Made by a program: the position numbers and the translations under genes | Source of the DNA: a virus | Direction: 5' to 3' (one strand) | DNA: 44,998 nt | Virus record (IMG/VR): IMGVR_UViG_3300026118_000020 | Location: 1 to 44,998 of that record | Notes under the pieces: generated by a model | Seen by the model: the letters and a program-made list of their open reading frames with translations, nothing else | Database searches by the model: none | What the model was told of the DNA's origin: nothing | In this document: piece by piece, positions 7,818 to 42,871 of the stretch | How the letters are laid out: every line of letters starts with the position of its first letter | How positions within the stretch are numbered: the stretch's first letter is position 1

Positions 7818-7942
7818 CCAGACGTGGGGGACCGCCCAGAGATCGGCTCCTGGGCTTAATCGGAAATCCCATCCGCTCGGTCAGGCCTGACACGGGACTG
7901 ATACCGGGATGAAGCCTCCGGGTTCCCCGCCCAACGTCGCCG

Positions 7943-7986
7943 TCGGCCCCCAATTTCTCGGCCTCGTCCCCGAGAGTGGGGGCCGA
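7943..7986 (+). terminator. Hairpin downstream of capsid gene
   Basis: A 10-bp perfect stem (arms 7943-7952 and 7977-7986) encloses a second smaller stem. It lies in the about 209-base gap after the capsid gene and before the next gene, so it probably ends or attenuates the head transcript. The TAGGATA/TATA-like bases just after it (7992-8004) could be a promoter for the following genes, but this is weak. Confidence 0.6.
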
Positions 7987-8026
7987 TGGTCTAGGATAGG
8001 TATATCCGATCCAAGAGAGGGACGAG

Positions 8027-8302
8027 ATGAGCGACCAGAACGAGCACGAGAGCGGCATCGCCTATTCCAGCTTCGAGGGAATGGCGATGTGGACCGGCGG
8101 GCAGCAGTTGCTGCGTGCCGGACAGTCCATCGACAAGAACCACCAGCTCTACCGCGAGCGGCCCGAGCTGTTCCAGGGCCTGGCCCCCATCGACGCGCAG
8201 ATCTCGGCCAACCGCGACCCCGGTCGTGTCCAGCCGATGGTCGAGTCGACGATGAACTCGGGTCCGGGCGGGGGCCGCGTGCGGAAGGTCCAGGGTCAGT
8301 GA
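8027..8302 (+). CDS. Hypothetical protein
   Basis: Unrecognised 91-residue soluble protein, acidic and polar at the start and Gly/Arg-rich at the end. ATG after AGAGAGGGACGAG. First gene after the capsid terminator and overlapping the glycosyltransferase gene by GTGA, so it probably belongs to the same cassette. It may be a small capsid accessory, but no motif supports a specific function. Confidence 0.65.
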   Translation: MSDQNEHESGIAYSSFEGMAMWTGGQQLLRAGQSIDKNHQLYRERPELFQGLAPIDAQISANRDPGRVQPMVESTMNSGPGGGRVRKVQGQ

Positions 8303-9201
8303 CGGGGGCGGCTCCGGAGGACGAGACGGCGGCCACCCCCACCGACATACCGGCGGTGGCCTCCGAGGTCACGGGAGAAGCTCCGGGGGCCATCGCCGGG
8401 GGCACGGTACAGATCGCCTACCTGCACAGCGATCGGGTGTCGCACTCGTGGCACATGTCGCTCATGAACGCGATCGCCTACGACAAGGCGATCGGGCTCG
8501 ACGTCATCGTTGCCGCGCCGTTCGCGGTGAGCTGTTCCGGCCCGAATTCGCTGGTCGAAGGCCGGAACATGGCCGCGACACACTTCCTCGACAAGACCGA
8601 CTCCGAGTGGCTGTTCTTCGTCGACACGGACATGGGTTTCGAGGCCGACGCGATCGAGCGGCTCTTGCTCGCTGCCGATCCGGTGGACCGACCGGTAGTC
8701 GGCGGCTTGTGCTTCGCACTCAAGCACATGGGTCCGGATAACAAGGGCGGTTTCATCGTCCGACCGGTTCCAACGCTGTTCATGTGGGGGTCGACCCCCG
8801 AGCAGGGGTTCGGGTTCACCAACCGGTTCCGTTACCCGCCGGAGACGCTGGTTCAGGTCGCCGGTACGGGCGCGGCGTTCCTGCTGATTCACCGGTCCGT
8901 CCTCGAGGCCATTCGCAAAAACGAGGGCGATCACTGGTTCGACTTCGTGGCCTACGGGGACGGTGCGCAGGTCAGTGAGGACCTGTCGTTCTGCTACCGG
9001 GTCGCCCAGCTCCAGCGGCCGATCTTCGTGCACACCGGTGTCAAGATCACCCACCACAAGACGTTCTGGCTCGGCGAGGACGACTACCGGATGCCCGACG
9101 TCGAGCCGATGCTCAACATCATGAACGCGGCACGGTCGGACGCCGGGGCGTTCACCGCCGAGGAGGTTACGAACCTGATGAGGGGGATCAGTGGAGACTG
9201 A
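8299..9201 (+). CDS. Glycosyltransferase (GT-A type)
   Basis: Predicted to transfer a sugar from a nucleotide donor to a virion protein or other acceptor. In the 300-residue protein, a disordered N-terminus of about 35 residues leads into a Rossmann-like GT-A fold: TVQIAYLHSDRVSHSWHMS, LVEGRNMAATHFL, then FFVDTDMGFE with the DxD metal site (about residues 112-117), and SEDLSFCYRV near the C-terminus, where an Asp is expected as catalytic base. GTG start, GTGA overlap upstream and 11-base overlap with the next gene. Acceptor unknown; virion glycosylation is the best inference. Confidence 0.85.
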   Translation: MTGAAPEDETAATPTDIPAVASEVTGEAPGAIAGGTVQIAYLHSDRVSHSWHMSLMNAIAYDKAIGLDVIVAAPFAVSCSGPNSLVEGRNMAATHFLDKTDSEWLFFVDTDMGFEADAIERLLLAADPVDRPVVGGLCFALKHMGPDNKGGFIVRPVPTLFMWGSTPEQGFGFTNRFRYPPETLVQVAGTGAAFLLIHRSVLEAIRKNEGDHWFDFVAYGDGAQVSEDLSFCYRVAQLQRPIFVHTGVKITHHKTFWLGEDDYRMPDVEPMLNIMNAARSDAGAFTAEEVTNLMRGISGD

Positions 9202-22993: not shown

Positions 22994-23040
22994 ATTTTAC
23001 CATATGGATCGGCCCCGGGGTAACCCCCCCGGGGCCGATC
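22994..23040 (-). promoter_or_regulatory. Promoter module with terminator hairpin (leftward copy)
   Basis: On the - strand: a 14-bp perfect hairpin (23007-23020 with 23027-23040) directly after the stop of the 20-residue gene, then TATGGTAAAAT (22994-23004) and, six bases on, the start codon 22987. Same design as modules at 27170, 27505, 28307 and 28970. The hairpin both ends the upstream transcript and occupies the -35 area of the next promoter. Confidence 0.75.
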
Positions 23041-27169: not shown

Positions 27170-27263
27170 GGCCCCGGGGGGATTCCCCCGGGGCCGACCC
27201 CTATGGTAGAATAGAATTAGAAGGCGGGGGGCGTGCCCCCGCCCCGCACAGAGGAGGCCCAAA
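27170..27263 (+). promoter_or_regulatory. Repeated module: terminator hairpin, promoter, leader hairpin, RBS (copy A)
   Basis: Hairpin with 11-bp stem (27170-27180 with 27185-27195), then TATGGTAGAAT (27202-27212) followed by AGAATTAGAA, then a leader hairpin of GGCGGGGG and CCCCCGCC, then GAGGAGGCCCAAA before ATG 27264. The upstream hairpin ends the previous transcript and the -10 starts the next. Confidence 0.75.
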
Positions 27264-27504: not shown

Positions 27505-27591
27505 GCCCCCGGGGGATTCCCCCGGGGGCACCCGGTATGGTAGAATAGAATTAGAAGGCGGGAGGACCGCCTCGGGCGTGAGGAGGACAGG
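27505..27591 (+). promoter_or_regulatory. Repeated promoter module (copy B)
   Basis: 11-bp stem (27505-27515 with 27519-27529), TATGGTAGAAT (27536-27546) plus AGAATTAGAAGGCGG, leader hairpin GGCGG-GAGGA-CCGCC, and GAGGAGGACAGG before ATG 27592. The span from TATGG to GGCGG is the same as copy A. Confidence 0.75.
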
Positions 27592-28306: not shown

Positions 28307-28395
28307 TCGCCCCGGGGGGAATTCCCCCGGGGCGATTCCGTATGATAGAATGGAATTAGAAGGCGGGAGGACCGCCCCGACGAAGGAGGCCCCGA
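28307..28395 (+). promoter_or_regulatory. Repeated promoter module (copy C)
   Basis: 12-bp stem (28307-28318 with 28324-28335), TATGATAGAAT (28341-28351) plus GGAATTAGAAGGCGG, leader hairpin GGCGG-GAGGA-CCGCC, GAAGGAGGCCCCGA before ATG 28396. Confidence 0.75.
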
Positions 28396-28969: not shown

Positions 28970-29067
28970 AACCGCCCCGGGGGGGGGGTTCCCCCGGGGC
29001 GGTTCCATATGGTAAAATAGAACTATCGCGGGGGGCCTGCCCCCGCCCCCCCTCTAAGGAGCCCGAA
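28970..29067 (+). promoter_or_regulatory. Repeated promoter module (copy D)
   Basis: 14-bp stem (28970-28983 with 28991-29004), TATGGTAAAAT (29008-29018), a leader hairpin GCGGGGG/CCCCCGC, and TAAGGAGCCCGAA before ATG 29068. The ribosome site plus spacer equals that of the 26626 gene. Confidence 0.75.
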
Positions 29068-29295: not shown

Positions 29296-29397
29296 TCAGG
29301 AGACGGCAAGTAGGGACGCTCCGATGGACAGCGCGACATATCCGGCCCCAACGGCGACAATCAGCGCGCCCAGATGGCGATCGATCCAAGCAAGCAT
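29296..29397 (-). CDS. Tiny membrane protein (33 residues)
   Basis: ATG at 29397 after GTGAGGAAC. Product starts MLAWIDRHLG and is then one hydrophobic helix to its end (LIVAVGAGYVALSIGASLL). Six bases or so after the stop of the preceding gene, it is the last member of the purZ operon. Unknown. Confidence 0.55.
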   Translation of the reverse strand: MLAWIDRHLGALIVAVGAGYVALSIGASLLAVS

Positions 29398-29402
29398 GTT
29401 CC

Positions 29403-29798
29403 TCACTCCACTTCGTGTCGTTTGTACTCCGCCTCACCTGCCGTGATCAGCAGAGCAAGCGCACGCGCCTCAGCCGCTGTCACTATTCTGTTCGGTCCGA
29501 TGCGCTCCCGCGCGTCCAGGGCAAACAGATACTCCGCCTCGGTCGGCTTGCGGCTACCGTCGAGCGGCCAACCAAAGATGGTCGCGCCGAACACCGAACC
29601 AGCGGAGGCGGGGGCGACCAGCCTGGACGGCGGGTCCGGTTTCATCAGGAACTCGGCGAATCGAACTGTTGCGTCGGCCCGTTCGGGTCCGGTGAGCGGC
29701 TTCCACCCGTCGATCTTATACCCACGACCATTCTTCTCATCGACCCCCATCGACTCGACCAGTTGAAACGCCAGCCGCAGCGCCTCCTCGCGAGTCAC
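29403..29798 (-). CDS. Hypothetical protein
   Basis: 131 residues, GTG start in GTGA overlap with the gene before it. Ordered helical regions at both ends (TREEALRLAFQLVESMGVDE and AEARALALLITAGEAEY) around a Gly/Pro-rich centre. Unrecognised; co-transcribed with the dUTPase fusion. Confidence 0.7.
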   Translation of the reverse strand: MTREEALRLAFQLVESMGVDEKNGRGYKIDGWKPLTGPERADATVRFAEFLMKPDPPSRLVAPASAGSVFGATIFGWPLDGSRKPTEAEYLFALDARERIGPNRIVTAAEARALALLITAGEAEYKRHEVE

Positions 29799-29977
29799 GC
29801 GGTAAACCGTTCGAACAGGACGTAGCCGAACGCCCCGAGGATGACCACGGCGGCCGAGCCGAAGATCGCGATGGACAGGCCGACCGTGGTGCCGTTGCCC
29901 TCGCCCGACCGCCCCCGAGGTTGCTTCTTGCGCTTGGGGCGGTCGGCCGATCCGTCAGTTGGCCATTCCAGCGGCAT
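29795..29977 (-). CDS. Small single-span membrane protein
   Basis: 60 residues: basic Arg/Lys-rich first half (DRPKRKKQPRGRSGEG), then one membrane helix at about 33-54 (LSIAIFGSAAVVILGAFGYV). Start overlaps the dUTPase stop (TAATG). Function unknown. Confidence 0.65.
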   Translation of the reverse strand: MPLEWPTDGSADRPKRKKQPRGRSGEGNGTTVGLSIAIFGSAAVVILGAFGYVLFERFTA

Positions 29978-30888
29978 TAGTGACCACTACTCCCGTAGCC
30001 GTTGTGCCCCCGCTCGTGGGCCGGGAGGTCCGAGACCTCGACCAGCTCACCGGACCAGGCGGGGAGCAAGATCAACTGCGCGAGCCGGTGTCCGGGCTCG
30101 AACGTCACCGGCGCGTTGCTCCGGTTCTCGATCCCGACCATCAGCTCGCCTCGGTAGCCCGAGTCGATGATCGCCGACCGCACGTCGCACCGGTGCCGCG
30201 CCCAGGTCGACGAGCGGCCGGTGATCCAGCCGAAGTAGCCGTGCGGGATGGCGACGTGGACTCCGGTGCCGACCATGCTGTACTGTCCCGGGTCGAGCAT
30301 GACCGTCTCGGTGATCGCGAGGTCGAGTCCAGCATCGCCCCGGTACCTGCCTTGTTGTAGGTTCGCTGCCGCCCCCGCGACCTGCATCTCGGGCGGCTCG
30401 TGCGTCGGCGATTCGACCGCCGGGATCTTGGGGCCGAACGCGAGGGTGTCGTCCTGGAGAGGCCGCTGAGCAAGCATTTTCCTCAGGTCGTCCGGTGCTA
30501 CCGGTATGACGTCGTCAGCAATGATGTCGACGACCTGCGCACCTTGGCGCGACCAGGCAGCGAGCTGCACGGAGTACCGGATGTCCGTGAATATCACAAC
30601 CGGCTTGTTGCATTGGAGTGCCAAGCCGATCTCGACCGGCACACCGAGGGTGGCGACCCCGGCGGGCAGGACGGCGATGAACGCGTCGCAAAGATAGATT
30701 GCCGTGTTGTTGATCGAGTCGATCTTCTCGGCATGCTGAGCATCGCCGGTGTTGGCGAGGTACGCCTCATCCGGCTTGAACGCACCGACACCGGCCTGGA
30801 CCATCAGGACATTGAGATCGGTGATGAACGATCCGAGCCAGGACAGCTCACCGGCCTGGTCGATGGGACGTGCGAGGTAGACGAACAT
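29977..30888 (-). CDS. Fusion: nucleoside 2-deoxyribosyltransferase-like + dUTPase
   Basis: 303 residues from ATG 30888 (GAGAGGAAC in front). Residues 1-125 form a deoxyribosyltransferase-like Rossmann domain: FVYLARPID (2-10), DAFIAVLPAG (68-77) and GVPVEIGLA (82-90) with the likely catalytic Glu86. Residues 180-303 are a complete dUTPase: GDAGLDLAI (184-192), GRSSTWA (224-230), IIDSGYRGEL (240-249), GHRLAQLILLP (266-276) and ERGHNGYGSSGH (292-303), i.e. all five trimeric-dUTPase motifs. dUTPase makes dUMP and keeps uracil out of DNA. The N-terminal domain may cleave or exchange bases of deoxynucleotides. Such a fusion is unusual. Confidence 0.88.
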   Translation of the reverse strand: MFVYLARPIDQAGELSWLGSFITDLNVLMVQAGVGAFKPDEAYLANTGDAQHAEKIDSINNTAIYLCDAFIAVLPAGVATLGVPVEIGLALQCNKPVVIFTDIRYSVQLAAWSRQGAQVVDIIADDVIPVAPDDLRKMLAQRPLQDDTLAFGPKIPAVESPTHEPPEMQVAGAAANLQQGRYRGDAGLDLAITETVMLDPGQYSMVGTGVHVAIPHGYFGWITGRSSTWARHRCDVRSAIIDSGYRGELMVGIENRSNAPVTFEPGHRLAQLILLPAWSGELVEVSDLPAHERGHNGYGSSGH

Positions 30889-30907
30889 GAGTTCCTCTCG
30901 GGGGAGA

Positions 30908-30937
30908 GGCCGCCCGTTCCACGTGAAACGGGCGGCC
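30908..30937 (-). terminator. Terminator with parS-like loop (second copy)
   Basis: 11-bp perfect stem (30908-30918 with 30927-30937), 8-base loop. The top spells GTTCCACGTGAAAC (30916-30929), the exact reverse complement of the site at 26070-26083. It follows the stop at 30945 and precedes the dUTPase fusion gene, so it may attenuate the purZ transcript. Confidence 0.85.
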
Positions 30938-30944
30938 GACTCGG

Positions 30945-31322
30945 TCAGACTTGCGGGAGGTCCTTGATGGCACGAACCATGGCGGACGGGGTGGTGAAGC
31001 CGAAGAACCGGTCGAGGTAGTCGTACACCTCGGACAGCCACCCCTCCTTGAAAGTGATGTCGCGGTGGTCGACCCACTCGCGGTTGGTCGGCCCCCCGTG
31101 CTGGCGGATCCGCACCGACCCGTGGATGTAACCGAAACTGATGACCTGGTGGCGGCTGGTCGACTGCGCGATGGCAATCGACTCCAGTTCCTCGGGCCGA
31201 CCCGGAATCGACCGCAGCCGGTAGCGGGCGATGCACCGGGCGCGCAGGACCGACATCAGCCGACTGGGCGATTCGGTCGAGGCGGACAGGTTCGGGATCT
31301 GGATTTCGAGTGTCACGCTCAC
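30945..31322 (-). CDS. Hypothetical protein of the purZ operon
   Basis: 125 residues, GTG at 31322 in GTGA overlap with the mazZ-like stop. N-terminal strands (SVTLEIQIPNLSAS), an Arg-rich centre, a His/Gln part (SRHQVISFGYIHGSVRIRQH) and a C-terminal helix (YDYLDRFFGFTTPSAMVRAI). No HD pair or other motif that would make it DatZ. Its place directly after mazZ makes it a candidate for a new part of the Z pathway. Confidence 0.7.
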   Translation of the reverse strand: MSVTLEIQIPNLSASTESPSRLMSVLRARCIARYRLRSIPGRPEELESIAIAQSTSRHQVISFGYIHGSVRIRQHGGPTNREWVDHRDITFKEGWLSEVYDYLDRFFGFTTPSAMVRAIKDLPQV

Positions 31323-31786
31323 TTTGGCTCCGTTCCGGGCCATCCACCGGCGTCGCGAATACGCTGCGCCATGCGGACGTAGACCCCGATGTCGAGAAGG
31401 GTGTCGTCGGAGGGTCGGTCGCCGCGCCGGATCGCCGACGTCCAGCGGGCGAGCTTGCCGATGATGTAGAAGTAGACGCCGAGTTCCGCCAGCTCGGCAT
31501 CGGTCGAGTATGGCCCTTCGAGGTGAAGGACGGTTGCCATCTGGCGGCCGATCTCGACCAGGTCATCCGACCCATACTCGATCGCTTTGGCGACGGTCTG
31601 ATCCGCCTCCGCGCTGGCCTTGGTGAACCACCAGGCGCGTAGTTCCTGCTCGGGGTCGAGCGGCACCGGATCGGCGTCCCGCGTCTCATCGAATATGACG
31701 TGGTTGAACGTCAGGCCAGCCGCGCGCATCTGCTCCGCTCCTCGCCGGACCTGCTCGGTCCAGCGGTCGGGCACGGCCTGGCTCAC
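31319..31786 (-). CDS. mazZ: MazG-like nucleotide pyrophosphohydrolase, MazZ candidate
   Basis: In the Z-DNA pathway MazZ turns dGTP into dGMP, the substrate of PurZ. 155 residues, all helical, from GTG 31786 in GTGA overlap with purZ. The MazG-like metal-binding acids are seen in KAIEYGSDDLVEIG (E70, D75, E78) and AELAELGVYFYIIGKLARW (E98, E101), with DDTLLDIGVY (D132) after. Context beside purZ makes dGTP the likely substrate. By sequence alone another nucleotide (dATP, dUTP) is possible. Confidence 0.82.
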   Translation of the reverse strand: MSQAVPDRWTEQVRRGAEQMRAAGLTFNHVIFDETRDADPVPLDPEQELRAWWFTKASAEADQTVAKAIEYGSDDLVEIGRQMATVLHLEGPYSTDAELAELGVYFYIIGKLARWTSAIRRGDRPSDDTLLDIGVYVRMAQRIRDAGGWPGTEPK

Positions 31787-32820
31787 AGCTCGACCAGCGA
31801 CTTCGGACCGGTGCCGACGAGCCGGACATTGCACTCGGTGATGTCCTCGACCTCGGCCAGGTACTTCATGACCTCGTGGTCCAGGCTGAGCTGGTCGGTC
31901 TTGTTGGCGCAGCTCGGGAACATCTGGTCGACCATGGTGACCGCCAGGTCGATGTTCGCGTGCCAGTCGCCCCCGCCGTTCGCGGCAACCGCCTCACCGA
32001 CCAGCTCCCAGTCGGGCTCGCCGACCCGCCGGATCTTGCTGGTGACGGTGGTGTGCTCCTGCGGGAGGCCGAGCCGCTCCCAGGTCGTCTCACCCTTCAA
32101 CGGGCCGGAGTTCCCGGCGACCCGGATCGGGTAGACCCGAGCGACCAGGACGATCCGCAGGTTGCTGACGTACTCGGCCCAGGGCGAGATGCCAGCCATG
32201 GACAGGAAGTCGATGGCCCGGCAGTCGGACGAGGTCACCTGCGGGTAGAACCGAGTGTGCAGACCGAGCCCGTAACCCTGGGTGCCCTCGACCACGACCT
32301 TACCGGCGTCACGCAGGTCGAACGGTCCGTCCTCCGACAAATACGGCTTGAACGTTGGCAGCGCCGAGATCGTGTCAGCTCGGCGCATGATCCGGTCGGC
32401 CCGAGCGCCTCCGATGCCCTTGCCGGTCGAGCCGATGGTGTTCACCAGACCGAGCAGGTTCTCGGCCTCGCGGTGGCGTGGGGTCAGGATGGTCGCGCTC
32501 GGGTGGATCGACAGCCGACCGTCGATCCGGTGTCCCGCCTCGACCGCCTGGTTCATCTCCGAGAGCAGCACCTCCGGGTCGATCTCGGAACCGGCCGCGA
32601 TGTGCAGTTGACAGATCGAGCTGGTCACGGCAGCGACCGGGAGAGCACGGAACTTGAAGACCCGGCCTTCCGAGTCGTAAACCGTGTGACCGGCGTTCGG
32701 ACCGGCGACCCGGATCGCGATGTCCGACTCGTCGACCTGGCGCTCGCCCAGCCAACCGCAGACAGCGCCCTTGCCTTCGCTGCCGAACTGTGCTCCGGCG
32801 ACGACGGTGATGGTTGCCAC
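31783..32820 (-). CDS. purZ: 2-aminoadenylosuccinate synthetase (PurZ)
   Basis: Joins dGMP and aspartate using ATP to form the 2-amino adenylosuccinate precursor. 345 residues, much shorter than bacterial PurA (about 430), as PurZ enzymes are. P-loop GAQFGSEGKG (9-18): the catalytic Asp of PurA (GDEGKG) is Ser14, a feature of PurZ. AGPNAGHTV keeps the His (45); STGKGIGGARADRIMR and VVEGTQGYGLGLHT follow the PurA plan. GTG 32820 is chosen from GAGGAGG in front and from the P-loop position. First gene of its operon, with its own promoter (32871-32900). Confidence 0.93.
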   Translation of the reverse strand: MATITVVAGAQFGSEGKGAVCGWLGERQVDESDIAIRVAGPNAGHTVYDSEGRVFKFRALPVAAVTSSICQLHIAAGSEIDPEVLLSEMNQAVEAGHRIDGRLSIHPSATILTPRHREAENLLGLVNTIGSTGKGIGGARADRIMRRADTISALPTFKPYLSEDGPFDLRDAGKVVVEGTQGYGLGLHTRFYPQVTSSDCRAIDFLSMAGISPWAEYVSNLRIVLVARVYPIRVAGNSGPLKGETTWERLGLPQEHTTVTSKIRRVGEPDWELVGEAVAANGGGDWHANIDLAVTMVDQMFPSCANKTDQLSLDHEVMKYLAEVEDITECNVRLVGTGPKSLVEL

Positions 32821-32870
32821 GTACCCTCCTCGGGGTGGATGCGACCGGACAGTCCGGCCGCAGCAGGGAT

Positions 32871-32945
32871 ACTCTACCCCGGGGCTTGCCCCGGTGTCAA
32901 TGGCCATCTTGACACGTAGGCAAGCAGTAGCGTACGATACCTGGC
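32871..32945. promoter_or_regulatory. Divergent purZ and purB promoters, facing -35 boxes
   Basis: Leftward: TTGACA (complement of 32895-32900), 18-base spacer, TAGAGT (complement of 32871-32876), leader of about 45 bases to purZ. Rightward: TTGACA (32909-32914), 18-base spacer, TACGAT (32933-32938), then ACCTGGC and ATG 32946, so purB mRNA is probably leaderless. The -35 boxes face each other over 8 bases (TGTCAA-TGGCCATC-TTGACA), a symmetric element that one regulator could cover. Confidence 0.85.
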
Positions 32946-34157
32946 ATGATTCCGAGGTATTCCCACCCGCTGATCACCGAGCAGTACTCGGCAACCCAGA
33001 CCTACAACGACTGGCTGACGATCGAGCTGGCGACCCTCATTGCCCAGGTCAACCAGGGCGTGATTCCCGACACCAGCGTCACCCAACTGCTCACGCAGGA
33101 TGTGCAGGGGCTGCGGATCGACGACCCGGCCGCATCGCTGATCGCCGAGTACGAGGGCCGGACCCACCACGACGTGGGAGCGTTTATGGCGTGGCTGCGC
33201 GACCAGGTCAGCGGGGGGCAGTGGCTACACTTCGGCCTGACCTCAAGTGATCTGGTCGACACGGCGCAGGGCCTGCGGTTTCGGCGGCTACACCGGCCTC
33301 TACTGGTCGAGCTGGGCAACCTGACTAGCGCGCTCACGAAGTACGCGTCGAACGACCTGCCTGTGCTCGGCATGACCCATGGGCAACCAGCCGAGCCGAC
33401 CTCGATCAAGGCGCGGGGCTGGAACTGGCTGGCTTACGTGGATGGGCCGATTGTCCAACTCAGCATGCTGGTCCGGCGCATGGCGGTCTGCAAACTAAGC
33501 GGCCCGGTCGGCACCTACGCCCACAACCCGTCGACGGTCGAGGCCGAGGTAGCGGTCCACCTCGATCTGATCCCTCAGGGTCCGGGCGCGAGCCAGATCG
33601 TCCCTCGGTCGACGCTGGCGATGTGGGCAAGCGCGGTGGCGACCCTGCTGTCGGTGTACTCGAAGATCGCGACCGACATGCGGCTGATGTCGATGCGAGA
33701 CGAGGTCTACTGGCCTCGGGACCCTGATCACGTCGGCTCGTCGGCGATGGCGCATAAGAACAACCCGATCGAGGCCGAGCAAATGATTGGGTTCGCCCAG
33801 ATGGCGCGCGGCTTCGCTGCCATGCTCCAGCCGCTCGACCTCTGGCTTGAACGGGACATCTCCCATTCAAGTGTCGAGCGGGTTGCCGTTCCGGACCTGT
33901 GGCATCTGCTGTTCGTTGGAACGACGCGTATGACCAAGTTGCTCGAAGAGGCGACCCTCCGGCCTTTGATGGCCGAACAGCATCTGACCGATGAGTCAAA
34001 CGCAGCCTGGACGCACAAGGTGACACTCGATGCTATCCGGGACGGTATGGGCTGGCAGGAGGCACGTGAGTACGCGTTGAACTTCGACACCGAGTCGTAT
34101 GACGTGATGGGTGACGCGCGTCGATTCATGGACAACTACCCGGCGGGTCAGCGGTGA
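32946..34157 (+). CDS. purB: Adenylosuccinate lyase
   Basis: Splits fumarate from (2-amino)adenylosuccinate, here giving the Z monophosphate. 403 residues in the fumarase/aspartase superfamily: RTHHDV (72-77), GLTSSDLVDTAQ (97-108), MTHGQPAEP with His145 as general acid (143-151), and the signature loop GSSAMAHKNNP (264-274) with the Ser base. Full length and all catalytic positions kept. Most Z phages use the host PurB; an own copy is less common. Start at 32946 is forced by the promoter; no ribosome site is visible. Confidence 0.94.
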   Translation: MIPRYSHPLITEQYSATQTYNDWLTIELATLIAQVNQGVIPDTSVTQLLTQDVQGLRIDDPAASLIAEYEGRTHHDVGAFMAWLRDQVSGGQWLHFGLTSSDLVDTAQGLRFRRLHRPLLVELGNLTSALTKYASNDLPVLGMTHGQPAEPTSIKARGWNWLAYVDGPIVQLSMLVRRMAVCKLSGPVGTYAHNPSTVEAEVAVHLDLIPQGPGASQIVPRSTLAMWASAVATLLSVYSKIATDMRLMSMRDEVYWPRDPDHVGSSAMAHKNNPIEAEQMIGFAQMARGFAAMLQPLDLWLERDISHSSVERVAVPDLWHLLFVGTTRMTKLLEEATLRPLMAEQHLTDESNAAWTHKVTLDAIRDGMGWQEAREYALNFDTESYDVMGDARRFMDNYPAGQR

Positions 34158-34294
34158 GCGTCTGGGTGATCGTCTACGGCAACTACGAACCGGCTGAGGT
34201 CCACTCGATCTGGAAGACTAAAGAGCGTGCCGAGCGCGAGTGTAGCAATCTCGACTCAGCCTGGCATGTTGAAGAGTGGGAGGTTGGCGAGTGA
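34154..34294 (+). CDS. Small protein of DUF7336 type
   Basis: 46 residues, SVWVIVYGNYEPAEVHSIW then a helix KTKERAEREC and WHVEEWEVGE: a small alpha/beta unit often seen in phages and bacteria. GTG in GTGA overlap with purB, and it overlaps the next start in the same way. Function unknown. Confidence 0.65.
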   Translation: MSVWVIVYGNYEPAEVHSIWKTKERAERECSNLDSAWHVEEWEVGE

Positions 34295-34530
34295 ACCAGG
34301 CGCAGGCGGCCGAGCTGCTCGGTTGCTCCGAGGCGACTGTGAGTCGTCTGCGGTCGGGTGACCGGACCCCGAGTGTCCGAATGATGCAGGAAATCAAGCG
34401 GCTGCTGTCGTGGTCTCTCGATGACCAGGCGGCAGCGATCGAGCGAGGGGACTACGGCACGTTGTTGGCTGGTAGGATGGACCGGCTGCGGCTGCGACGT
34501 CGGCACCGACGCGGCAGGGCAGCGTGTTGA
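34291..34530 (+). CDS. XRE/Cro-type helix-turn-helix protein
   Basis: 79 residues from GTG 34291. QAQAAELLGCSEATVSRLRSG is a clear HTH with recognition helix EATVSRLR (residues 14-21), followed by RMMQEIKRLLSW and a basic C-terminus with many Arg. DNA-binding regulator, perhaps of the purB or replication genes. No dimer or protease domain that would mark a lysogeny repressor. Confidence 0.8.
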   Translation: MNQAQAAELLGCSEATVSRLRSGDRTPSVRMMQEIKRLLSWSLDDQAAAIERGDYGTLLAGRMDRLRLRRRHRRGRAAC

Positions 34531-34706
34531 CTCACCGGCCCTGCGGAGCATGTAACGCGCTGGTCCCGTCTGCGACCGGCTGCAAACACTGGCCCGGTGT
34601 CGGCTACAAAGCGGGCAAGCCAGGTCGGGTGCGTGGGCGGTCGCTCGGGGCCGCTGCGCCACCACCTCCGGCCCCGGTCTTGCCTCCGGGGCAAGCCGTA
34701 CTGTAG
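34524..34706 (+). CDS. Small zinc-ribbon-like protein
   Basis: 60 residues from GTG 34524, overlapping the HTH gene by 7 bases. CGACNALVPSATGCKHW gives Cys 7, 10, 20 and His 22 for metal binding; the rest is Gly/Pro-rich. Its stop TAG is part of the TAGAAT -10 box of the next gene. Confidence 0.55.
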   Translation: MLTHRPCGACNALVPSATGCKHWPGVGYKAGKPGRVRGRSLGAAAPPPPAPVLPPGQAVL

Positions 34707-34709
34707 AAT
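34698..34709 (+). promoter_or_regulatory. -10 box GTACTGTAGAAT before helicase gene
   Basis: Same family as the other TRTGGTAGAAT boxes; a short CTTGCC/GGCAAG hairpin just upstream takes the -35 place. About 29 bases later comes TAGGAG and the ATG at 34745. Confidence 0.5.
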
Positions 34710-34744
34710 AGTCTGGTCCCACCCCGACTGTGTTAGGAGTCCCG

Positions 34745-36292
34745 ATGCCGCTAACCTCTCCGGCTGCCGCGCCTGTTCCGCTCGGCACTCGTTACGGCCG
34801 ACTGGTCGCCCCCGCCCAAGTCGTCCCGACAACCGACATGAAGCTGACCGGCCAGCAGGATGCCATCTGCGGGGCCGTGAACGAGGGACACCGCGATATC
34901 GTGGTCGAGGCGCTCGCGGGGACCGGCAAGACGTCGACCCTGGTCGCGATTTCCAAGCAGCAGCTTCGGCGTCCGGGCGTCTACCTGGCCTTCAACAAGT
35001 CAGTGGCGATCGAGGCTGGCGGCAAGTTCCCGGACTGGATCCACGTTTCAACGGCGCACGGCCTCGCCTACCAGGCCATCGGAAAGGACTACGGCAACCG
35101 ACTGCCGGGCAACCCTGGGGCGAGCCGGATGGGCGCAAACCAGATGGCCAGCATCATGCGTGTCAAGCCGGTCATGCTGGACACCGGCACCATCAACCCG
35201 GTGCACCTGGTTCGGATGGCGCAAGCGACGGTAAACGCCTTCATGAAGACAGCCGACCCGGAGGTCTTGCCTCGGCACATCCCCAGCCGCTGCCTGGTGG
35301 ATCACAGTCCGCACGACCTGGGCGAGGCAATTCTCACCGTCGCCCGCCGGATCTGGCAGGACCTGAGCAGCACAACCGGCCGCTTCCGCTTCACGCACGA
35401 TGTCTACCTGAAGCTGTGGCAGCTCGGCACCCCGCGTCTGCCGTTCGACTACATCATGTTCGACGAGGCGCAGGACGCCGACCCGGTGATTGCCTCGATC
35501 GTCAACAGGCAGCAGGTCCAGCGGCTGTGGGTTGGCGATCGCAATCAGGCGATCTACGGCTGGCGCGGGGCGGTCGACGCAATGAGCAAAGTCGTCGACG
35601 CCAAGCGCTACCCGCTCACCAAATCGTGGCGCTTCGGCCACGCGATCGCCGACGAGGCGAACAAGTGGCTCGATCTGCTCGGCTCGCAATGGAAGGTGGA
35701 GGGCAACTCGGCGATCCGGTCGACGATCGGCGAGGTCACCATCCCTCGGGCGATTCTCTGCCGGGGCAACGGCACGGCGCTCGGCTGGGTGTTGAAGTTC
35801 CACGAACAGTCGATTCCGGTCGCGCTGGCCCCTGGCGACAAGAACGCGGGCAAGGACATCGAGCGGTTCGCTTGGGCTGCCAGGGATCTGATGAAGCCGG
35901 ATGCCGACGGCACCGACCACCCCGACCTGGTCGGGTTCACGAACTGGGCGCAGCTCATCAAGCACGTCGATGAGGAAGAGGACACCGATGACCTGAAGCG
36001 TCTGGTTGGGATCATCGTCAAGGTCGGCGTCTCGGCGGTCATTGACGCCGTCCGGGGGTGTGTGACCGAAGACCGCGCAATGATCACCGTCTCGACAGCG
36101 CACAAGGCGAAGGGCCTGGAGTGGTCGTCGGTCCGGGTCGCTGACGACTTCATCCCGCCCTGCATGAAAGAGGGCTACGACCCGACCAAAGGGCCGGACA
36201 CCGAGGCCATGATGTTGAACTACGTGACCGTGACCCGCGCTAAGGAGCGGATCGAGCTAGGTGCCCTCTCCGAGCCGGAGATGTGGGCGTGA
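34745..36292 (+). CDS. UvrD/Rep-like superfamily 1 DNA helicase
   Basis: Unwinds DNA 3' to 5' with ATP. 515 residues. Motif I EALAGTGKTSTL (57-64 core), motif II IMFDEAQDADPV (about 238), motif III LWVGDRNQAIYGWRG, motif V VSTAHKAKGLEWSSV and motif VI MLNYVTVTRAKERIEL are all present, so the enzyme should be active. ATG 34745 with TAGGAG in front is preferred over the upstream GTG. Likely the replication or recombination helicase together with the Cas4-like nuclease downstream. Confidence 0.92.
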   Translation: MPLTSPAAAPVPLGTRYGRLVAPAQVVPTTDMKLTGQQDAICGAVNEGHRDIVVEALAGTGKTSTLVAISKQQLRRPGVYLAFNKSVAIEAGGKFPDWIHVSTAHGLAYQAIGKDYGNRLPGNPGASRMGANQMASIMRVKPVMLDTGTINPVHLVRMAQATVNAFMKTADPEVLPRHIPSRCLVDHSPHDLGEAILTVARRIWQDLSSTTGRFRFTHDVYLKLWQLGTPRLPFDYIMFDEAQDADPVIASIVNRQQVQRLWVGDRNQAIYGWRGAVDAMSKVVDAKRYPLTKSWRFGHAIADEANKWLDLLGSQWKVEGNSAIRSTIGEVTIPRAILCRGNGTALGWVLKFHEQSIPVALAPGDKNAGKDIERFAWAARDLMKPDADGTDHPDLVGFTNWAQLIKHVDEEEDTDDLKRLVGIIVKVGVSAVIDAVRGCVTEDRAMITVSTAHKAKGLEWSSVRVADDFIPPCMKEGYDPTKGPDTEAMMLNYVTVTRAKERIELGALSEPEMWA

Positions 36293-39097: not shown

Positions 39098-39140
39098 TTG
39101 ACACCGGGGCAAGACCCATGGTGGGATACCGATATCCCAC
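39098..39140 (+). promoter_or_regulatory. Promoter with overlapping palindrome
   Basis: TTGACA (39098-39103), 18 bases (CCGGGGCAAG like the purZ promoter spacer), then TGGGAT (39122-39127). A perfect 8-bp inverted repeat GTGGGATA-CCGA-TATCCCAC (39121-39140) covers the -10, an operator-like site. The gene start is at 39166 after AAGGAG. Confidence 0.6.
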
Positions 39141-40138: not shown

Positions 40139-42634
40139 GTGTCACTTCCACTCGCCCTGGAATGGGCGTCACAGGGCTGTCGCGTCCTGCCGGTCAACGG
40201 ATCGACGAAGCGACCCCTGATAAAAGCATGGCAAGAGAACTGCACGACGGACGAGGAGCAGATCAGGGAGTGGTGGCGTGAGTATCCTCAAGCGCGTGTG
40301 GGCATCGCAACCGGGGACGGCGGATTTGACGTCCTGGACTTCGATGTCTCGGACGGCAAGCCTGGCCTCGCCCAGATGGAGCGGCTTCTCGACCTTGGCG
40401 TCTTGGTGCCAGGTACGTTCTGGCTGGTCAGTACTCCATCCGGTGGTCGGCACGTGTACCTGCGGGGCACCGATCAGCGAAACAAGCAGAACGACAAGAG
40501 CGTGCCCGGTGTTGACTTTCGAGGCGTCGGGGGCATGGTCCTCGCTTTCGGCAACCCTGGATACCGCCGCATCACAGGTTCCGGTCTTGGACGGGACGAT
40601 CTCAAGACAGTTGACTGGGGTTCAGTCGTCGCTGCTCTCGCGCCCGAACCTGTGGTGGATCGGTCCGAGCCTTTACGACACCCGATCGGCGTTCAGGATG
40701 CTCAACACCGGCCAGTAACGTCCAAGCTGGTCGCGCCGAATCGTGCGGCCTATGACAACCCGGTCGGCGAAGAGTCACCGCTCGACTGGTTCTGCAGTCA
40801 CAACGATCTAAGTGACCTGCTTAGGGCTGACGGCTGGCAGTATGCCTACGAACACGGGGGACGAGACTACTGGGTGCGTCCAGGCAAAGACCCGAAAGAC
40901 GGCGTGTCCGCCAACGTCATGATCAACCCTGACGGTCGGCAGACGCTGATGAATTTCAGCAGCTCCGTCGGTTTGCCGACCGACCGGGGGTTGAGCGCTG
41001 CGCAGTATTGGGCGTACACCCGACACCGAGGCGACATGCGGGCGGCGGCCGGTGAGATCCGCCGGACGCTCATGCCCCGCCGGACGCCCCCGGGAGGTCA
41101 CGGGACGAACCAGACGGCCGTGGGGGGCACGGACGCACCCCCGGCCGCTCCTGTGGCCTCGGAGACGCCCTCCAGCGGGCAACTGGTACCAGCGGACAAG
41201 GCTGGTATCCCAGAGATGGTGCAACAGTTCTGGAAGGCACGGCCCGAGCTGGCCGAGGTGTACTGGCAAGCACAGATCAGCGACACCTCGCCGTGGGCCG
41301 TCCTCGGTACCGTGCTGGCTTGCGTCGCCGGACGAGTCGGACCGCACGTGCGAATCCCGCCGAAGGGAGGAGTAGGGGCGGCAGCGAGCCTGAACATCCT
41401 GGTAGCCATCAACGGCGACTCGGGGGAAGGCAAGGGGGTCTCGGGGCAGGTTGCGCGTGGATTCTGCGGAGCACCCTACCCGCCGTGGCGCAAGCCGGGC
41501 ACCGGGCAGGGTATCGCCGCGATGTTCACTGAGCAGACAAAAGAGGGGCCGGTCCAGTCCAACGATACCGTGATCTTGAACGTCACCGAGATCACGCAGC
41601 TCGGGGCACACATGGACCAGCGAGGCGCAACCATCACATCCACGTTACTTGAAGTCTACATGGGGGAGGAGCTAGGAGAGCACTATGCCAACAAGGAGCT
41701 GCGTCGACCTGTCCGTGAAGGTCAGTATCGACTCGCGCTGGTCGCAGGTGTTCAGCCTGACAACGCCGCGATCCTATTCGATCACGCGGTATCCGGGCTG
41801 CCGCAACGTTTCCTGTGGTTACCGGCCTTCTGGGAATCTGCGGTCGTACCTGAAGGGCTGCTTGAGCCACCAGCTCCGGGGCCAGCGCTGCGCAAATGGC
41901 ACGGCTGGCAGGCGGTACATCCAGGCACACTCGACGAAAGCCTTCAACTCGCTGACGAGTGGAGTCCGTCTTCTGGACTCGCCGCGCCTGGCCCTGGAAA
42001 GAAAAAAGCCGAGCCCGAGGCGGTCAGTGCTCCAAGCAAGGACGAACTCCTGGTTACGTATGCGCCTGGGGTTCGCAGGCACATCGAGACTGACAGGAGG
42101 CGCAGGCGCAACGAGATCCGGCGCAAGAAGGCCGAGGGCATCGACGCTGCCGACCCGGATTCGCACGTCCTACTGACCCGCATCAAGATTGCCGCTCACC
42201 TAGCCATCTGGCTCGACAACACCACTCACATCAGCGACGAGATCTGGGAGCTGTCGGCAGTCCCGATCTGGGTTAGCAATCGGACCCGCATCGAGGCCGA
42301 GAAACGCATCCAGAAAGCGCAAGAGAACAAGAGCGCCGGACGGGCACGTGCCATGGTCGCCCAGAAGGCAATCATCGAGGAGGCGGACGACCACAAACGC
42401 AACGCCGTCTACATCAACGCGCTCGACCGGCTGGTTCACGTGCTGGGTAGCACACCTGGGTGGCTCACGACCCGCGCCGTGAATGCCAAGCTCAACTCAC
42501 GAGAAAAGAAAGCCTGGCGCGAGGCAGGCTACGAGATGACCGAGATGCTCGGCGATCTGGTCCTCGCCGACAAGGTGGAGACTCAGGAAGTCCAGCGGGG
42601 CGGCAACACCGCAGTCGAGTGGCGCGCCAAGTGA
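40139..42634 (+). CDS. Primase-polymerase / DUF3987-type ATPase fusion
   Basis: Likely replication protein, 831 residues from GTG 40139. N-terminal bifunctional primase-polymerase (archaeo-eukaryotic primase) domain, about 1-175, with LDFDVSDG (DxD at 67-69) and STPSGGRHVYLRG (His105). The middle domain has a P-loop INGDSGEGKGVS (424-435) and a VILNVTEITQ segment like DUF3987 ATPases. The C-terminus (about 750-831) looks like a winged helix. It is the only polymerase-like enzyme in the window. In Z phage S-2L a PrimPol copies the modified genome. Confidence 0.85.
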   Translation: MSLPLALEWASQGCRVLPVNGSTKRPLIKAWQENCTTDEEQIREWWREYPQARVGIATGDGGFDVLDFDVSDGKPGLAQMERLLDLGVLVPGTFWLVSTPSGGRHVYLRGTDQRNKQNDKSVPGVDFRGVGGMVLAFGNPGYRRITGSGLGRDDLKTVDWGSVVAALAPEPVVDRSEPLRHPIGVQDAQHRPVTSKLVAPNRAAYDNPVGEESPLDWFCSHNDLSDLLRADGWQYAYEHGGRDYWVRPGKDPKDGVSANVMINPDGRQTLMNFSSSVGLPTDRGLSAAQYWAYTRHRGDMRAAAGEIRRTLMPRRTPPGGHGTNQTAVGGTDAPPAAPVASETPSSGQLVPADKAGIPEMVQQFWKARPELAEVYWQAQISDTSPWAVLGTVLACVAGRVGPHVRIPPKGGVGAAASLNILVAINGDSGEGKGVSGQVARGFCGAPYPPWRKPGTGQGIAAMFTEQTKEGPVQSNDTVILNVTEITQLGAHMDQRGATITSTLLEVYMGEELGEHYANKELRRPVREGQYRLALVAGVQPDNAAILFDHAVSGLPQRFLWLPAFWESAVVPEGLLEPPAPGPALRKWHGWQAVHPGTLDESLQLADEWSPSSGLAAPGPGKKKAEPEAVSAPSKDELLVTYAPGVRRHIETDRRRRRNEIRRKKAEGIDAADPDSHVLLTRIKIAAHLAIWLDNTTHISDEIWELSAVPIWVSNRTRIEAEKRIQKAQENKSAGRARAMVAQKAIIEEADDHKRNAVYINALDRLVHVLGSTPGWLTTRAVNAKLNSREKKAWREAGYEMTEMLGDLVLADKVETQEVQRGGNTAVEWRAK

Positions 42635-42871
42635 AGGCGGGGGGGTGTAGGACGTGTAGGACAGTCCTACACCCCCCCGGCGCATACGCACAGACGATTA
42701 CTGACTGTTATACAGCCCAGGATAGTTGTTGTGACAAAGATCCCCGGTCAGAGGCCATGTGGGGCGTTGTCGCCCGTCGAGGGGGATTACGTATTGTTAT
42801 TGCGTCCGGCCGCCGGGGGGGTGTAGGACTGTCCTACACGTCCTACACCTCTAGTCGTGGAGACAGTTGTC
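42635..42871. other. Putative replication origin with 39-bp inverted repeats
   Basis: 237-base gap after the primase gene. Two perfect 39-base inverted repeats (42644-42682 and 42811-42849) enclose 128 bases. Each arm has three copies of GTGTAGGAC, ordered forward-forward-reverse and forward-reverse-reverse. Within each arm a long hairpin can form (16 bp at 42638-42653 with 42664-42679). The centre has AT-richer parts such as GATTACTGACTGTTATACAG (TTATACA resembles a DnaA box) and TTACGTATTGTTATTG. Iteron-like copies plus AT-rich centre beside the primase suggest an origin; a terminator is the alternative for the first arm. Confidence 0.6.

Follow-up and report, generated by a model that had tools for sequence, protein, structure and literature searches.

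A PurZ0-type gene cassette with its own PurB-family lyase, predicted to place 2-aminoadenine in the DNA of an actinophage-like virus without DpoZ

The IMG/VR virus record IMGVR_UViG_3300026118_000020 (44,998 bases; its whole length is called the window here) is a tailed-phage genome that begins with the genes for terminase, portal, protease and capsid. It is highly likely that the window carries a cassette of the less-studied PurZ0 type that makes the deoxynucleoside triphosphate of 2-aminoadenine (Z), dZTP, and removes dATP, on a complete or near-complete actinophage-like genome without the Z-selective DNA polymerase DpoZ. The virion DNA is predicted to contain 2-aminoadenine. The original prediction had described three neighbouring enzymes, namely PurZ, a MazG-like MazZ and a phage PurB. 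The PurZ-like and PurB-like enzymes were confirmed by hidden Markov model (HMM) matches and motifs, whereas the supposed MazZ had no family, profile or significant fold match to MazG or MazZ. A Z cassette with its own PurB therefore stood at the sequence level, but not as one of the purZ-mazZ-datZ type, because the synthetase is PurZ0, DatZ is absent, and a DmtZ-DutZ fusion, overlooked in the same interval, is present.

Synthetase

The synthetase open reading frame (ORF) was listed as 31783-32907 on the minus strand, and its likely start is the GTG at 32820, which follows a GAGGAGG site. The protein scored 320.6 bits against the NCBIfam PurZ model NF038379 (cut-off 300) and 210.9 bits against the archaeal-type PurA model, far under the cut-off of 368. 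The HMM comparison that had been proposed as a check was thus decided for PurZ. The best solved structure was 7vf6, the PurZ0 of Gordonia phage Archimedes (268.7 bits), followed by archaeal PurA (145.9 bits), phiVC8 PurZ (128.7 bits) and S-2L PurZ (90.5 bits).

The alignment showed that the catalytic Asp13 of PurA is replaced by Ser in the synthetase (QFGSEGKG), as in all PurZ proteins. The Asp of the TMVDQ motif is retained, as in PurZ0 and archaeal PurA; it is Asn in phiVC8, S-2L and DMU1 (FLNF). The Asp of this loop recognises guanine in PurA, and its retention suggests that the synthetase uses GTP. Its predicted substrates are dGMP and GTP. In the tree, classical PurZ split off at 100/100, and the window synthetase grouped with five related contigs on the PurZ0 side (94/97, open). 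The fork joining all PurZ0 rows (90/95) was also drawn open, and archaeal PurA formed a long branch whose placement is unsafe. Taken together, structure match, alignment and tree assign the synthetase to PurZ0 rather than classical PurZ.

DmtZ-DutZ fusion and the PurZ0-linked four-helix protein

The fusion matched Pfam dUTPase (PF00692) at 2e-25 and, below the threshold, Nuc_deoxyrib_tr at 2.3e-6. It aligned over its full length with the DmtZ-DutZ of Arthrobacter phage Wayne (31%, 1e-31). The equivalents of all six DmtZ residues Tyr6, Asp12, Pro57, Asn77, Glu103 and Trp124 (Ghobes numbering) were conserved. The gene has an ATG start with GAGAGGAAC upstream. The family was described in 2026, with activities measured in Wayne and Ghobes: DutZ of PurZ0 phages hydrolyses dATP and dGTP, and DmtZ acts on dAMP, which it hydrolyses or can use as a deoxyribose-5-phosphate donor for the Z base (PMC12884076). 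Judged by these similarities, the recognisable dATP/dGTP-hydrolysing enzyme of the window is the DmtZ-DutZ fusion and not MazZ. An NDT-type fusion was also seen outside the PurZ0 phages, in Stenotrophomonas virus Jojan60, where a protein annotated as purine trans deoxyribosylase carries a DUF5664-type domain as its C-terminal portion.

The gene that had been called mazZ (31319-31786) starts with the GTG at 31786, although the mechanical ORF was listed from 31834. The purZ stop TGA (31785-31783) overlaps this start as GTGA, in agreement with the overlap first noted on the minus strand. The protein matched no Pfam, NCBIfam, PHROG or PDB-profile family. Its AlphaFold2 domain model has four helices (pLDDT, the predicted local distance difference test score, of 91), and Foldseek with two AlphaFold2 models found nothing significant (best E 1.4). 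Alignment of the family with hhalign gave probabilities of 0.1% against a DUF5664 alignment and 0.9% against S-2L MazZ. The name MazZ was dropped after these searches. The family appears to be either unrelated to MazZ or diverged past recognition.

The four-helix family had 31 matches among 50,697 INPHARED phage records (18 Microbacterium, 6 Gordonia, 5 Streptomyces, 1 Micrococcus and 1 Curtobacterium), all in genera whose phages bear PurZ0. Its counts equal those of PurZ in Microbacterium, Gordonia and Streptomyces, and no match was found among plasmids. A profile scan of IMG/VR gave 31 loci, and PurZ lay directly upstream and DutZ downstream in 30 of the 30 with sufficient contig. Linkage alone strongly suggests that the four-helix protein acts in the Z pathway. 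The DUF5664 protein at the same position in Arthrobacter PurZ0 phages is a measured dATP/dGTP hydrolase (PMC12884076).

PurB-family lyase

The best solved structure for the purB product was the adenylosuccinate lyase 8jbd (4.9e-49), and the active-site motifs THHDV, SSD, THGQPAEPTS, GSSAMAHKNNP and ERDISHSS were intact. By organism counts, PurB accompanies the PurZ-like hit in 11 of 207 INPHARED records (6 Gordonia and 5 Streptomyces), annotated there as PurB-like or adenylosuccinate lyase. A scan of viral contigs with the window PurB alone gave no matches, its patterns being too specific. The set had been described as more complete than in most Z phages. This is true of PurB, but a phage-owned PurB is not new among sequenced Z phages, and the Z-selective polymerase is missing. 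In the openly accessible papers searched, PurB figures in the Z pathway as a bacterial enzyme, and no description of a phage-encoded PurB in a Z phage was found.

In the tree, 14 PurBs of PurZ0 phages lay on one side of a 100/98 branch and 29 bacterial PurBs on the other. The best bacterial match to the window PurB was 37%. The bacterial set was picked by similarity to the window protein, and typical actinomycete PurBs may be missing from it; within these sampling limits, the tree fits a single origin of the phage PurBs. A recent host origin is unsupported, given bacterial matches of at most 37% and separation of the phage sequences at 100/98. We speculate that a phage-specific PurB clade could be needed in hosts whose own lyase copes badly with the deoxy, 2-amino substrate.

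Genome and replication genes

Seven related contigs with PurZ0 and PurB form a group (G000, which is the window, G001, G002, G003, G008, G010 and G013). G000, G001, G003, G008 and G010 share the same gene order and similar ends (TerS to HNH); the circularly permuted G002 spans the HNH-TerS junction. The gene set of the group is essentially closed. DNA_pol_A (PF00476, DNA polymerase I (PolI)/DpoZ) was found in none of the seven contigs and in all other tested PurZ0 records longer than 37 kb. A contig-end artefact as the cause of this absence was ruled out by the TerS-HNH synteny and the permutation of G002 across the junction. DatZ (PF12917) was not found in the six group contigs tested, in a search whose positive controls gave matches. 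DUF5664 likewise gave no match, in a search where no control gave one.

Among the long ORFs of the window, only PrimPol looks like a polymerase. Its AEP motifs (D67-F-D69, GRH and GVD) are all kept, and PrimPol was present in every record longer than 28 kb among those tested in the DNA_pol_A scan. The plus strand from 32946 carries, in order, the genes for the PurB-like protein, a helix-turn-helix (HTH) protein, a UvrD helicase, an exonuclease and PrimPol. The capsid resembles those of Gordonia, Mycobacterium and Rhodococcus phages. When the left 24 kb of the window was searched by megablast, no close isolated relatives came up.

Besides scattered weak matches, the group and other PurZ0 contigs have in common the cassette and the small HTH gene. 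The capsid, helicase and exonuclease of the group were unmatched in the other PurZ0 contigs, and PrimPol was matched once. This distribution would be explained most simply by transfer of the whole cassette to another phage backbone that has no PolI.

Comparison with known systems

Gordonia phages Ghobes and Archimedes share with the window PurZ0, the four-helix type of protein, DmtZ, DutZ and an own PurB on the opposite strand, with purB leading into a helicase-exonuclease-PrimPol module. They differ in that a DNA polymerase I gene lies in the purB-purZ interval and that DmtZ and DutZ are separate genes; their replication and structural genes show no detectable relationship to those of the window. 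Streptomyces phages Galactica and Hiyaa also have PurZ0, the four-helix domain, DmtZ-DutZ and PurB, but their genomes are approximately 81-83 kb, encode DNA polymerase I and have purB on the strand of purZ, at a distance of approximately 5 kb. The Arthrobacter phage Wayne group has PurZ0 and a fused DmtZ-DutZ like the window; DUF5664 replaces the four-helix family, purB is absent and DpoZ is present. Cyanophage S-2L resembles the window in combining a Z cassette with PrimPol and no DpoZ (PMC8065100). It differs in its classical ATP-type PurZ, MazZ and DatZ and lacks PurB, DmtZ and DutZ.

Predicted pathway and alternative explanations

In the proposed pathway, DutZ would convert dGTP to dGMP and dATP to dAMP, and PurZ0 would join dGMP and Asp, with GTP as donor, into succino-2-amino-dAMP. 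The phage PurB would split off fumarate to leave dZMP, which host kinases would raise to dZTP. DmtZ would destroy dAMP and could move the deoxyribose-5-phosphate onto free Z base, salvaging Z. PrimPol, the host replicase or both, neither of them expected to be Z-selective, would insert Z because little dATP would be left. The four-helix protein would be an obligate partner, most likely a pool enzyme in the place that DUF5664 holds in Arthrobacter phages. DutZ and DmtZ would keep adenine out through their action on the pool, as DatZ does in S-2L. As no Z-selective polymerase was found, the Z chemistry is probably enforced by nucleotide-pool cleaning. In S-2L, a non-selective PrimPol together with dATP removal can work (PMC8065100), and E. 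coli given the S-2L Z-cluster incorporated Z into its DNA in the absence of DpoZ (PMC8342488).

Another explanation is a working cassette with partial substitution only, A and Z being mixed in the genome. The DpoZ of the phiVC8 kind favours dZTP by a factor of one to two orders of magnitude (PMC8599892); the window genome, without PolI, holds no substitute for this selectivity. The S-2L Z-cluster in E. coli replaced only about 1/4 of plasmid adenines (PMC8342488). In S-2L itself, however, PrimPol is non-selective and all adenines are replaced (PMC8065100), and in the window both DutZ and DmtZ would attack the dATP/dAMP pool; we regard mixed DNA as unlikely, though it deserves serious consideration. 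The classical arrangement, in which the overlapping gene would encode a MazG-type dGTPase feeding an ATP-using PurZ, is a poorer candidate and appears improbable. The order of purZ and a small alpha-helical protein mimics purZ-mazZ of S-2L, the conserved acidic residues E63, D90 and D94 together with an Arg bear a loose likeness to MazG, and DR2231, a MazG-like protein, turns up repeatedly in fold matches that are not significant (S-2L MazZ once, E 6.5). Against it stand the PurZ0 signature in structure match, alignment and tree, the absence of DatZ, the failure of sequence, profile and fold searches to reach MazG, MazZ or DUF5664 significantly, and the canonical ExxE...ExxD pattern, which is not conserved in the four-helix family. 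Least credible of all is purine auxiliary metabolism, in which synthetase and PurB would merely boost host AMP synthesis and the DNA would be normal. Some non-Z phages do carry purB (PMC8093824), but the change of the catalytic Asp to Ser, the PurZ0 placement and the strict linkage to DmtZ-DutZ make this very hard to accept; the relatives of DmtZ-DutZ that have been characterised are active on deoxynucleotides only.

Several points weigh against the interpretation as a dZTP-making, dATP-removing cassette on a genome without DpoZ. PurB scored 233.7 bits (3.5e-69) against TIGR00928, under the equivalog cut-off of 326.2; we therefore call it a PurB-family lyase, a diverged relative and not a proven equivalog. 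In the HMM and structure comparison of the three proteins first named, PurZ was thus confirmed, PurB was confirmed at family level and MazZ was not. DmtZ and DutZ are approximately 30-45% identical to the characterised enzymes, so their substrate preference could differ. The lack of PolI is not odd in itself, because host DNA polymerase III serves many phages. PolI was also not found in two further related contigs, but these are short fragments and uninformative. The Z-DNA interpretation of the cassette is nevertheless probably right.

More tentatively, and a little short of probable in our judgement, the group may be a lineage with fully Z-substituted DNA and no Z-selective polymerase, in which an unrelated replication chassis received the cassette as one block and A is kept out by pool enzymes alone, among them the four-helix family as an unrecognised enzyme family. 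If true, the S-2L type of solution would exist a second time, independently and made up of other enzymes. The group separates polymerase selectivity from nucleotide-pool control, which are coupled in nearly all known Z phages, and draws attention to the four-helix family, linked to PurZ0 in every case examined. This family and the phage-specific PurB clade are relevant to building Z-DNA in cells.

Promoters and candidate regulator

The divergent promoter region suggested for purZ and purB was borne out by two back-to-back TTGACA sites (Table 1). Three promoter-like sites were found in 5.6 kb, compared with 0.5 in shuffles. The -10 element of the purB site ends 7 nt before the ATG, so the purB mRNA may be leaderless. 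The 16-mer TTGACACCGGGGCAAG occurs exactly at the purZ site (32885-32900) and at 39098-39113, before the ORF at 39118. Weaker copies lie at the purB and helicase sites, and 4 matches at up to 3 mismatches compare with 0.42 expected. Relatives of the HTH protein occur in eight contigs (42-77%) and also in other PurZ0 phages. TTGACACCGGGGCAAG may serve as a shared operator, for which the HTH protein is a candidate regulator.

Table 1. Coordinates of the cassette and neighbouring features in the window.
Feature	Position	Strand	Evidence or remark
ORF at Z operon end	29403..29798	-	Conserved in part of group; no family match
dmtZ-dutZ fusion	29977..30888	-	Putative NDT-family dAMP hydrolase/deoxyribose-5-phosphate transferase domain and dUTPase-fold dATP/dGTP pyrophosphohydrolase domain
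Small ORF	30945..31322	-	Conserved in group; GTG start overlaps preceding stop (GTGA)
PurZ0-linked four-helix protein	31319..31786	-	Earlier called mazZ
purZ0, predicted GTP-type succino-2-amino-dAMP synthetase	31783..32820	-	GTG start; NF038379, 7vf6, alignment, tree
purZ promoter candidate TTGACA-18-TAGAGT	32871..32900	-	Inverted repeat CCGGGGCAAGCCCCGG in spacer
purB promoter candidate TTGACA-18-TACGAT	32909..32938	+	Back to back with purZ site
purB, adenylosuccinate-lyase family	32946..34157	+	TIGR00928; 8jbd; motifs
HTH protein, candidate regulator	34276..34530	+	Weak PHROG HTH matches, 2.8e-6
Promoter-like TTGCCT-18-TAGAAT	34680-34709		Upstream of UvrD-family helicase gene
UvrD-family helicase	34730..36292	+	Pfam UvrD; PHROG 1967
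PrimPol	40139..42634	+	Only recognisable polymerase of genome; Pfam Prim-Pol 5e-28

Other features

The small ORF between the fusion and the four-helix gene showed 38-55% identity in six related contigs. For the ORF at the operon end, tblastn gave 61, 48, 60 and 42% in G001, G002, G003 and G010, respectively. Directly 3' of PrimPol lies a perfect 39-nt inverted repeat (42644-42849) with arms 128 nt apart, consisting of six GTGTAGGAC units (0.13 expected in the window). It is a replication-origin candidate, and the contig break of G002 falls at about this repeat.

Four direct copies of a ~70-nt element lie upstream of small ORFs (27176-27245, 27510-27579, 28315-28384 and 28982-29051), with one inverted copy at 22994-23037. 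The element is a G+C-rich stem-loop followed by TATGGTAGAATAGAATTAGAAGG and is promoter/leader-like; it is perhaps a repeated terminator-promoter unit. Directly after the major capsid gene, positions 7909-9201 encode a glycosyltransferase-like protein (PHROG 34859, 4e-20) that is conserved at 57-65% across the whole group. Glycosylation of capsid or DNA is possible.

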